From a bacterium (GTDB taxonomy: Bacteria > Armatimonadota > Zipacnadia > Zipacnadales > Zipacnadaceae): a stretch of 64,000 bases of DNA. Within the stretch, counting starts at the first letter, position 1. Each line of letters begins with the position of its first letter. The stretch spans positions 75,847 through 139,846 of the forward strand of contig JAUWYY010000006.1 of the NCBI GenBank assembly GCA_030615605.1. Direction: 5' to 3'. Under the pieces are notes generated by a model. It was not told where the DNA came from and made no database searches. It saw nothing but the letters and a program-made list of their open reading frames with translations. The position numbers and the translations under genes were made by a program. Shown here piece by piece: positions 7,090 to 11,171 of the stretch.

Positions 7090-7198
7090 GAGAGGGCTGG
7101 ACAGCAACGGCCCGGCCTGGCAGCACTGTCTTTCAGCGTGGGTCAAGTTGTTTCGCGTGGCGCCAAGATCGGACTTGGGGCGGTGAAGGTCCTTGATT

Positions 7199-7807
7199 AT
7201 GTCGCCGGACTCGTACTTGTCGTACGGAGTCATCGCGGCTGGGGTGGCGATCGTGGCCGCTGCATTCTCCAAGGCACTAGGCGACAGGGACGGCAGTAGT
7301 TCCTTCCTGCGTGCGTGGTGGTATGGGGGCGTTCGAACAGCTCTGGGCGCTGCGCTCGGCACCACGGTTGCCTGGATCACTTGGGGTGGTCCCAGTTATG
7401 ACTGGGACTTATTTTTGTCGGGCATAGTGTTCACGTTGCGGGGAACCGCTGCGGGAGCGCTGGGGGGCGGGATCGGGCCCAGTATGTTCTGGTACGTCTT
7501 ACGCAAGCTGATTACCTTCTTCCCCCGGTCGTTTCCTATGAAGCCCGTGCCAGCCAGAGCACAAGGTTATACGTTGCTCAGTTGTCTGGGAGGTGCTGCT
7601 GGCTGTGGAGCGTTCCTGCCGGGGTTTCTTCTTGTGCTGTTCTTGGGCATTGGCCTCATTCCCGGGCCTGAAGCGTGGGTGAGTGGGCTTCAGTGGGAGG
7701 AGGCCGCTGTATGCTCGCTCGTGGTCGGAGGAATGATTACATCTTTGCTTCTCCCTTGGTTGGTCCAGCGCCTCTTTCCAAGCCCCTCGACGTACGATAC
7801 TCGTTGA
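7199..7807 (+). CDS. Uncharacterised integral membrane protein
   Basis: About 202 residues with no family I recognise. Four to five hydrophobic stretches are visible: about 10-22, 43-60, 73-92 (glycine-rich, with GGGIGPSMFW after it), 121-150 and 166-190. The C-terminus is basic and short. The ATG at 7199 is chosen over a TTG two codons upstream because GGTGAAGG lies 9 bases before it. It sits between gmhA and guaB, 109 bases after the former, and could be transcribed with either. Nothing in the sequence hints at a substrate or partner. Confidence 0.65.
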   Translation: MSPDSYLSYGVIAAGVAIVAAAFSKALGDRDGSSSFLRAWWYGGVRTALGAALGTTVAWITWGGPSYDWDLFLSGIVFTLRGTAAGALGGGIGPSMFWYVLRKLITFFPRSFPMKPVPARAQGYTLLSCLGGAAGCGAFLPGFLLVLFLGIGLIPGPEAWVSGLQWEEAAVCSLVVGGMITSLLLPWLVQRLFPSPSTYDTR

Positions 7808-7883
7808 CAACAGCAGCTTCGTCTGGTAACCTTATAGCCTCCATAAGCCATTTGATGCACTGAAGCGACAAGGAGGTAACCGG

Positions 7884-9353
7884 GTGTCGGATAGGATTCG
7901 AGGCGAAGCGCTGTCTTTCGACGACGTGCTGCTGATTCCGGCCAGGGCGGCACTGCTGCCTGCTGAGGTTGATATAACCACGAGATTTTCCCGCAACATT
8001 CCCCTCAACATTCCTCTGGTCAGCGCGGCGATGGATATGGTCACTGAAGGGCGGCTGGCTATTGCGATGGCTCGCGAAGGTGGCATCGGTGTTATTCATA
8101 AGAGCATGAGCATCGAGGACCAGGCCGCCGAGGTGGATCGGGTCAAGCGCTCGGAGAGCGGGATGATAATTGATCCGGTTACTCTAGGCCCCGACCAGAC
8201 TGTCGGCCACGCTGAACAGTTGATGGGGCGCTATCACATTTCCGGGCTGCCCGTCACCGCGAAGGGCAAACTTGTGGGCATAGTCACCAACCGTGACTTG
8301 CGCTTTGAGACAGATATGAGCAAGCTGGTGCGTGTGGCAATGACCCATGAGAATCTGATAACCACTGGGGAAGGCACCACTCTGGAAGAGGCCAAGCGTA
8401 TCCTCCACGAGCACCGCATCGAGAAGTTGCCTGTGGTGGATGAAGAGATGAACCTGCTGGGGCTTATTACCATCAAGGATATTGAGAAGGTACAGCAGTT
8501 TCCCCACGCCTGCAAAGATGATCATGGCCGACTGCGGGTGGCGGCGGCCGTTGGTGTCGGGCCTGACGTCTGGGACAGGGCGGCAGCCCTTGTCGACCGG
8601 GAGGTGGACGGGCTGGTGGTAGATACGGCTCATGGCCACTCTGAACGCGTACTACTCACGGTAGAGAAGTTGAAAGAGAAGTGGTCTGACAAAGATGTGA
8701 TTGCCGGCAACATCGGCACCGCTGAGGGCTGCCGCGACATGATTGCAGTGGGTGCTGACGGGGTGAAGGTGGGCATGGGACCCGGTTCGATCTGTACCAC
8801 GCGTGTGGTAACTGGTGCCGGGGTCCCGCAGTGGACGGCTATAACGGAGGCCTTCGGAGTCGCTGCAGAAGTTGGTGTGCCGCTGATTGCTGACGGCGGC
8901 GTTAAGTTCTCCGGCGATATTACCAAGGCACTGGCAGCCGGAGCAGAATCAGTAATGATCGGCGCACTGTTTGCCGGTACCGAAGAAGGTCCAGGTGAGA
9001 CGGTGCTGTATCGAGGACGTACCTATAAAGAGTACCGCGGCATGGGTTCACTGGCAGCGATGCAAGTGAGTCGCAGCAGCCGCGATCGCTACGGACAGGA
9101 GGATATGGTGGCGGAGAAGGTCGTGCCCGAAGGTCTGGAGGGCCGGGTCCCGTTCAAGGGACCACTGTCGGGCGTCGTCCATCAGCTTGTTGGCGGCCTG
9201 CGGTCGGGTATGGGCTACTGCGGCGTGCAGAATATCGAAGAACTGCGCACCAAGACCTCATTTTATCGGATCAGCACAGCGGGCCTGCGCGAAAGCCATC
9301 CCCATGACATTACTATCACCGAAGAGGCGCCTAACTACCAGGTTATGGAGTAG
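7884..9353 (+). CDS. guaB: Inosine-5'-monophosphate dehydrogenase
   Basis: A 489-residue IMPDH, the normal bacterial length, catalysing the NAD-dependent oxidation of IMP to XMP, the committed step of GMP synthesis. The (beta/alpha)8 barrel is interrupted by two CBS domains (about 90-205), the regulatory Bateman module. The catalytic cysteine loop [16 protein letters not shown] is at about 302-317, preceded by VGMGPG; the IMP phosphate loop and the flap arginine (around RSSRDRYGQ) are present. Translation starts at GTG behind a near-perfect Shine-Dalgarno (AAGGAGGTAA). No guaA is adjacent; hpt, another purine gene, lies about 46 kb downstream. Confidence 0.98.
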
Positions 9354-9436
9354 ATGCTGAGCACTTCGGTGGCGCCCGGTGCGACTTCCCTGCGATGGCC
9401 CCACGGCTGCCGCACCAAAGAAAAGCTCTGAATCAG

Positions 9437-10552
9437 ATGGCAGATATCAAGACTGTCGGGCTCAGCAAGTACTTTGGCGATACGGTTGGCGTTGCCGACA
9501 TTGATCTGACCGTCGGCGACGGCGAGCTATTTGTGATCACTGGGCCAACCAGCAGTGGTAAGAGCACTATGATTCGCCTGGTCGCTGGACTGGAGGAGCC
9601 GACCGAGGGTGACATCTGGATCGGGGGCCGACCGGTCAGCGAACTGTCCGCTAAAGAGCGGCACGTTGCCCTACTGTTCTCCAACTACGCACTGACCCCG
9701 AGTATGACTGTCTTTGAGAATATTGCAGTGCCGCTGCAGTTGCAACAGATTTCGGCGGAAGAGACCTCCAAGCGGGTGCGGGCCGCTGCCCGACGGGTAA
9801 ACATACATCGGCTGCTGGAACGAATCACTGCCAGGTTGTCCACTTTGGAGCTATATCGCACTGCTCTGGCGCGGGCTTTCGCCAGTGAACCGGAGGTCCT
9901 GTTGATGGACGGGCCACTGGCTAACCTGGAGCCAGAAGATCGCTCATCGGCTCTGGAGCAGCTAGGGCAGTGCCAAGAGGGGCTGGGCATTACAGTTCTT
10001 TACACGACTGAGGACGAGGCTGAAGCGACGAAAATGGGCGATCGGGTGGCGGTACTCCGGGAGGGACGACTTCAGCAGGTGGGGACGGTCTCCGAGCTGT
10101 ATGATCATCCCGCCAACAGCTTTGTGGCCAAGTTTATTGGGCGTCCTCACATAAATATGGTCGAGGCCGCCGTTATGACAAGAGCTGACAAGGTCTACCT
10201 GGACCTCGGGCCGGTAGACCTGACTATGCCGGAAAATATCATGACGGCCCTGCGCGACTTCGAGGGTCGGCCTGTGGTAATGGGTGTGCGCCCCGAGGAT
10301 ATATTCGACAAGCGCGCCGCTCCCCCCAAGCCGACCATTTCGAAAGACAGTCTGGAAGTTAAGGTAGATGAGGTGACCACGCTGGGCGACCGGCGCCTGC
10401 TTACGCTTAATACCGGCCAGGACACCCTGAAGGCGCTATTTTCTCCCAGTTCGGCAGCCCCTGTCGGGGCCCACATCGAAGTGAGCATTGACCTGGCCCA
10501 AATCCACCTCTTCGATGCTGAAACGGGGGAGAGATTACCGGTCCCCGACTGA
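9437..10552 (+). CDS. MalK/UgpC-like ABC ATPase with degenerate catalytic motifs
   Basis: About 371 residues with the full architecture of a sugar-importer ATPase (MalK/UgpC type): nucleotide-binding domain about 1-235, then a TOBE-like regulatory region including VMGVRPEDIF. Walker A is intact (GPTSSGKST, 36-44) and the Walker B aspartate is present (Asp158). Every element needed for hydrolysis is changed: Q-loop Gln is Ser82 (LFSNYAL), the LSGGQ signature reads LSTLE (134-138), the Walker B glutamate is Gly159 (LLMDGPL), the D-loop is NLE, and the H-loop histidine is Glu192 (YTTEDEAEA). The frame is uninterrupted, so this is not simple decay. No permease or binding-protein gene is nearby. 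It may bind ATP without turnover and act as a sensor or regulator; that is inference. The ATG at 9437 fits family N-termini better than the ATG at 9395. Confidence 0.88.
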   Translation: MADIKTVGLSKYFGDTVGVADIDLTVGDGELFVITGPTSSGKSTMIRLVAGLEEPTEGDIWIGGRPVSELSAKERHVALLFSNYALTPSMTVFENIAVPLQLQQISAEETSKRVRAAARRVNIHRLLERITARLSTLELYRTALARAFASEPEVLLMDGPLANLEPEDRSSALEQLGQCQEGLGITVLYTTEDEAEATKMGDRVAVLREGRLQQVGTVSELYDHPANSFVAKFIGRPHINMVEAAVMTRADKVYLDLGPVDLTMPENIMTALRDFEGRPVVMGVRPEDIFDKRAAPPKPTISKDSLEVKVDEVTTLGDRRLLTLNTGQDTLKALFSPSSAAPVGAHIEVSIDLAQIHLFDAETGERLPVPD

Positions 10553-10586: not shown

Positions 10587-11171
10587 ATGAGTGACCGATC
10601 CCACAAGCCCAGGCTGCTGCTGCATATTTGCTGCGGTCCGTGTGCGATGGCGGTCATAGAACGAATTGTCTCGCGCTTTGAGGTCGTCTGCTTCTGGTAC
10701 AATCCCAACATTGAACCGGCAGCCGAATACGAACGTCGCCTGGCTGGTATGCAGACGGTTGCGCAGGCGATGGGGGTGCCGTTGGTCGAAGGGCAGCAGG
10801 ACATTGCGGGTTGGCGGGAGGCTATTGCTGGATGGGAGGGGGAGCCGGAAGGCGGGTGGCGTTGTCGGATATGCTTTGAATACCGTTTGCGCAGTGCAGC
10901 CGAATATGCCCAGGATCGCGATATGGACTATCTGGCAACCACCTTGACTATTAGCTCTCACAAGGATGCCCAGCTAATCAACTCGTTGGGCGAGGACCTA
11001 GCGGAAGCAGCCGGCCTGAGGTTCCTGGCCGAAGTCTGGCGCAAGGAAGGCGGCTTTCAGCGTAGCGCACAGCTCAGCCGTCAACTCAATCTGTATCGTC
11101 AGGACTATTGCGGCTGTAGCTACAGCATGTCATCTTCAGTTGTCTGGCCCCGTAAGAGCGCTTTTGCCTAG
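10587..11171 (+). CDS. queH: Epoxyqueuosine reductase, QueH type
   Basis: A 194-residue member of the DUF208/QueH family, which reduces epoxyqueuosine to queuosine in the wobble position of tRNAs with GUN anticodons, replacing the cobalamin-dependent QueG. Conserved cysteines are all present: HICCGPCA (Cys15, 16, 19), CRICFEYRL (Cys93, 96) and DYCGCSYS (Cys175, 177), the last pair near the C-terminus as in characterised members that bind a 4Fe-4S cluster plus a single iron. The ATG at 10587 has GGTGAG upstream; a longer frame beginning at 10488 would overlap the ABC gene. No other queuosine gene is in the window, which would suit salvage or dispersed genes. Confidence 0.93.
   Translation: MSDRSHKPRLLLHICCGPCAMAVIERIVSRFEVVCFWYNPNIEPAAEYERRLAGMQTVAQAMGVPLVEGQQDIAGWREAIAGWEGEPEGGWRCRICFEYRLRSAAEYAQDRDMDYLATTLTISSHKDAQLINSLGEDLAEAAGLRFLAEVWRKEGGFQRSAQLSRQLNLYRQDYCGCSYSMSSSVVWPRKSAFA

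Follow-up and report, generated by a model that had tools for sequence, protein, structure and literature searches.

Within the window (the whole 64,000-nucleotide stretch of DNA that was analysed), a degenerate ABC ATPase of the UgpC/MsmX/MalK type is encoded on the plus strand at 9437..10552, between guaB (IMP dehydrogenase; 7884..9353, +) and queH (epoxyqueuosine reductase; 10587..11171, +), its conserved upstream and downstream neighbours; guaB also served as the marker of the slot and of the species tree. The open reading frame translates cleanly into 371 aa with a full-length nucleotide-binding domain (NBD) and an OB/TOBE regulatory region; an alternative in-frame ATG at 9395 would yield 385 aa, and the start conserved in the genus is MADIKTV at 9437. 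Three Pfam domains were matched (ABC_tran, OB_MalK and TOBE_2), the last two demonstrating the presence of the C-terminal regulatory region (10142..10549, +), which is missing entirely in the sister genus g3. The AlphaFold2 model (pLDDT 93.7, pTM 0.88) had its best solved-structure matches among sugar-importer ATPases (2d62, 1v43, 1g29 MalK, 7x0q and 6yir MsmX), indicating that the fold is whole and that only the chemistry has been lost. Furthermore, homology spans both the NBD and the regulatory region, placing the protein in the UgpC/MalK type by descent. It resembles UgpC and MalK in best family match, full-length alignment and domain content; unlike them, it has lost the catalytic residues and scores below the curated NCBIfam cut-offs (278 bits against 432 for UgpC, NF008653; 215 bits against 568 for MalK, NF008233), while a canonical relative of the same family reaches 469 bits for UgpC.

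Motif state and selection

Residues were numbered as in E. coli MalK, which coincides with the ATPase's own numbering through residue 240. The single-subunit nucleotide contacts are retained in all seven species of the genus (g1): the A-loop aromatic is Phe13, Walker A is intact (GPTSSGKST; 9542..9568, +) with G36, G41, K42 and S43 invariant in 7/7 species, and the Walker B Asp158 (LLMD; 9908..9910, +) is kept in every one. The Q-loop Gln is replaced by Ser (Q82S in FSNYALTP; 9680..9682, +), the deepest-branching genomes G001 and G004 retaining Gln82 and the other five having Ser or Pro. The ABC signature LSGGQ reads LSTLE (G136T, G137L, Q138E; 9836..9850, +), and in the genus position 136 is T, V or A and position 137 L, V, F, M or T; this free variation implies that the surface has simply been released and that no new motif was built there. 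The catalytic Glu has become Gly (E159G, codon GGG; 9911..9913, +), with Glu (GAG) in a single g1 species, G003; the D-loop SNLD has become ANLE (D165E; 9920..9931, +); and the H-loop His has become Glu (H192E in TTED; 10010..10012, +). The H-loop codons form a series from CAC in relatives through CAG (Gln) in G001 and G004 to GAG or GAA (Glu) in the other five genomes. Signature, D-loop and H-loop His are gone in 7/7 g1 species, and the residues required of a functional CUT1 ATPase (Q-loop Gln, LSGGQ, catalytic Glu, D-loop Asp and H-loop His) are lacking from this protein.

Among 72 positions nearly invariant across 42 canonical proteins, 16 of the 19 catalytic or sandwich positions were changed in g1 compared with 15 of 53 others (Fisher p = 3e-5), the classes having been assigned by the analyst from general knowledge of MalK. 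F13, G36, G41, K42, S43, D158 and most invariant positions of the C-terminal domain were retained; within g1, the nucleotide pocket was not invariant beyond background (7/11 versus 146/360, p = 0.11).

The established ABC mechanism pairs the Walker A and B motifs, catalytic Glu, Q-loop and H-loop that one subunit contributes with the signature and D-loop contributed by its partner. Because both halves of this sandwich have been lost, closure and hydrolysis would not be expected of the protein, whether paired with itself or with a different subunit. The alignment with MalK thus agrees with the first-pass annotation, made from the sequence alone, which had listed the replaced Q-loop, LSGGQ, catalytic Glu and H-loop His beside an intact Walker A and Walker B Asp, and adds the D-loop to that list. 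Its description of a single clean full-length frame with a C-terminal regulatory region is upheld by the translation and the OB_MalK and TOBE_2 matches, and its predictions that neither site of a sandwich dimer formed by the protein would work, even in a heterodimer, and that it probably binds nucleotide without pumping fit the residues lost and kept, from which binding without hydrolysis is expected.

The ATPase gene is under purifying selection in g1, with a pairwise Nei-Gojobori omega of 0.16-0.27 (95% bounds 0.11-0.43; pairs with dS 0.15-0.94). These values are about 1.5-2 times those of the canonical pairs G014/G009 (0.115) and G007/G010 (0.123); the neighbouring genes in g1 gave 0.04-0.09 (guaB) and 0.15-0.24 (queH). 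Since the signature and the H-loop His had already been lost before every g1 pair split, the constraint has been on an already dead enzyme. A nucleotide-binding pseudo-ATPase is marked by retained binding residues, the loss of catalytic ones and purifying selection, and all three were found here.

Distribution of the degenerate form

Orthologues were sought in the 40 nearest relatives of the genome. All seven g1 genomes (G000-G006) hold a full-length orthologue, 58-92% identical and with the same classes of loss, graded at Glu159 in G003 and at Gln82 in G001 and G004. Genera g2 and g4 of the family and the rest of the order have canonical motifs (G012 was read from residue 66 onward only). More widely, 176 of 177 homologues sampled from the phylum and other phyla keep the catalytic residues, with a single substitution among them, Arg for Gln82 in L293 (G269); the sole degenerate sequence, L049, is the 92% relative and belongs to a g1 genome. 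The genome of this close relative came from a cold-seep metagenome (isolate CSMAG_1268; catalogue PMC10491686). Canonical motifs in close relatives, which the annotation would have counted against its reading, do occur in the other genera, but within g1 the protein is uniformly dead, so the loss is old and not recent. As judged from these alignments, the degenerate state is genus-wide, old and confined.

The order guaB-ATPase-queH is shared by g1, g3 and g4, and in g2 guaB and the ATPase gene are followed by tatC (read from sequence). Synteny and tree make the ATPase orthologous to the canonical members in relatives. Canonical g4 orthologues occupy the same guaB-queH slot without a permease, which identifies the g1 protein as the direct descendant of a lone ATPase and not a side copy; the absence of a nearby permease remarked on in the first-pass annotation is real but is the ancestral state, as the canonical orthologues of the family also stand alone after guaB, in the manner of MsmX.

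A second form was found in g3, where G013 and G008 encode an NBD-only protein (220 and 222 aa; loci L197, 6390-7052, minus, and L198, 2441-3109, plus) in which the signature reads LSKAQ, the catalytic Glu has become Asp and the His is kept. The third g3 genome, G011, has no ATPase orthologue in the slot, and none was found elsewhere in the genome; between its guaB and queH (L235, 6701-8603) lie unrelated open frames, one of them GIY-YIG-like, and repeated sequence. The guaB tree groups g1 and g3 (94/90), and T190 instead of V190 is common to both, a hint from the aligned proteins that decay may have begun in their ancestor.

Client permeases and paralogues

MalF and MalG profiles were built from the family and the order to search for CUT1 permeases. 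Strong matches were obtained in 5/5 g2 and g4 genomes (E down to 1e-153), and G010 gave a MalG fragment only (E 6e-31). By contrast, no CUT1 permease was detected in the seven g1 and three g3 genomes, ten drafts that are 67-95% complete, in which only weak cross-matches to WtpB appeared. The dead ATPase forms thus coincide with CUT1 permease loss (0/10 genomes of g1 and g3 versus 5/5 of g2 and g4), and a cognate CUT1 permease was not found in the genome. Across the order, the genomes at least 85% complete that lack a MalF match are four from g1, G011, G010 (the one with the MalG fragment) and G034. The PF00528 permeases found in g1 are PstC/PstA, Dpp-type or WtpB-type; tandem MalF/MalG-like matches in G001, G002, G004 and G006 proved to be PstC/PstA accompanied by PstB and PhoU (read from sequence). 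In g4, a single open frame of some 625 aa encodes CUT1 MalF and MalG as a fusion (L178, 5469-7349; L182, 217-2091).

Canonical relatives in the order combine a single close ATPase with as many as eight MalF-type permeases, in keeping with the multitask arrangement of MsmX and MsmK. In g1 no canonical MalK/UgpC paralogue was found. The best same-genome paralogue, considered as an active partner, is only 34% identical and is a WtpC-type tungstate/molybdate ATPase beside its own WtpB permease. The canonical paralogue that the first-pass annotation had thought worth looking for was therefore not found in these genomes, and its suggestion of a sensor or inhibitor of a real importer encoded elsewhere is not supported, as neither a canonical CUT1 ATPase nor a CUT1 permease was found in g1.

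An orphan SBP_bac_1-type solute-binding protein, L152 (G000 C40; 8668-9903, minus; 411 aa), is encoded in a genome with no CUT1 permease. It has orthologues (L160, L159, L181 and L194); in g1 the neighbouring M16 peptidase-like gene is conserved with it, and the protein occurs also in g3 and g4. It was considered as a surviving importer part and set aside: it is kept both in G011, where the ATPase is lost, and in the canonical G009, so the two proteins are not tied.

Proposed fate of an importer ATPase and alternative explanations

MsmX and MsmK are established lone multitask ATPases of type I sugar importers in B. subtilis and streptococci (PMC7658222). The g1 ATPase is like them in fold (the 6yir match), in being a lone gene away from permeases and in numbering one per genome; MsmX, however, is catalytically intact and has client permeases, and the g1 protein has neither. 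Judged by motifs and orthology, it is a catalytically dead lineage of a multitask sugar-importer ATPase. Heterodimeric ABC transporters with one degenerate site include TM287/288, TAP and CFTR. BmrCD is a further example (PMC4046567). The g1 protein shares with these the loss of catalytic Glu, His or signature, and their NBDs still bind ATP, as is predicted for this one; in those transporters, however, the degenerate NBD is joined to a membrane domain and an active partner, either by fusion or by pairing, and the g1 protein has neither. We found no report of a degenerate lone MalK-type ATPase in the open literature, which is weak evidence of novelty.

We consider it somewhat more probable than its negation that the protein is an orphaned MsmX-like multi-importer ATPase, which lost its motor after its clients and was kept as a nucleotide-binding, non-hydrolysing protein in a non-motor role. 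The ancestor would have been a lone shared ATPase (multitask, MsmX/UgpC-like), inherited vertically, that energised the CUT1 sugar importers of the family. All CUT1 permeases would then have been lost, probably already in the common ancestor of g1 and g3; as the guaB tree unites these genera, a single loss there suffices. In the clientless ATPase the sandwich residues would have drifted away, the signature, D-loop, catalytic Glu and H-loop earlier and the Q-loop Gln later. What remains may bind nucleotide in the single-subunit pocket formed by the A-loop, Walker A and the Walker B Asp; the ATP sandwich presumably can neither close nor fire, and dimerisation through the regulatory domain probably persists. 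The present state is most likely a non-hydrolysing, nucleotide-binding dimer held by the regulatory domain. Purifying selection would keep it for some task other than driving transport. A nucleotide-dependent contact with another protein, or a regulatory one, is the likeliest candidate, a kind of second function that MalK-type ATPases have; MalK, for one, binds regulators, among them MalT. Retention for such a second role is plausible: it is the selection that points to it, and MalT binding by MalK lends plausibility rather than evidence here. No partner or regulated gene was identified. A more specific version, in which the freed motor was recruited genus-wide as a soluble, ATP-binding regulator or scaffold, a MalK-type pseudo-ATPase of which the sister lineage kept only the NBD, is possible, though we rate its chances a little below even.

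The main rival is slow gene loss, whereby a functionless relic is fading and is held by its guaB-queH operon position or by too little time having passed. We regard this as unlikely, yet it deserves weight, because the raised omega relative to canonical pairs, the truncation in two g3 species and the absence from G011 are what slow loss predicts and count against a retained function; the free drift of the signature in g1 points the same way. On the other side, the frame is full-length in 7/7 g1 species despite pairwise dS of 0.15-1.35, the omegas within g1 are all far under 1 (upper 95% bound at most 0.43), and derived residues, among them Y140, L173, Q175 and T190, are fixed across the genus.

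A continuing role in transport, whether through weak ATPase activity or as a binding-only subunit working with another permease such as Wtp or Pst, appears improbable: the Wtp and Pst permeases adjoin canonical ATPases of their own, the WtpB-type permease is the only PF00528 protein found in G000 and G005, and signature, D-loop and His are lost in 7/7 species, even though residues near the coupling-helix groove (Y84, A85, P88 and V114) are retained in g1 and Glu159 persists in G003 and the Q-loop Gln in G001 and G004. Still less credible is that the protein regulates a genuine CUT1 importer encoded at another locus; a binding-only NBD could in principle be dominant-negative or a sensor, but in 0/7 g1 genomes was a CUT1 permease or canonical CUT1 ATPase found. 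All the genomes are draft assemblies, which would allow for a sequencing, assembly or frame error; common, graded changes on synonymously diverged sequences from seven independent genomes speak for neither chance nor error, and we give this explanation next to no credence.

Under the favoured reading of an orphaned multi-importer ATPase, the family offers a clean natural experiment: one chromosomal slot shows a shared importer ATPase both with its clients and after their loss, and graded intermediate stages survive (His, Gln, then Glu at the H-loop; Gln82 first retained and afterwards replaced). A motor ATPase may thus persist under selection, without catalytic activity, once its transporters are gone, and the genus would provide a test bed for non-transport roles of MalK-type proteins. 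Automatic annotation as 'UgpC/MalK' would falsely predict sugar import in g1.

The chromosomal surroundings of the slot also differ between genera. Genes for a ROK kinase and a cupin-type glucose-6-phosphate isomerase separate gmhA from guaB in g3 and g4 and are absent from the g1 locus; in the window (7090-7883, compared with L165 and L197), an open reading frame without a Pfam match (7193-7807) replaces them.
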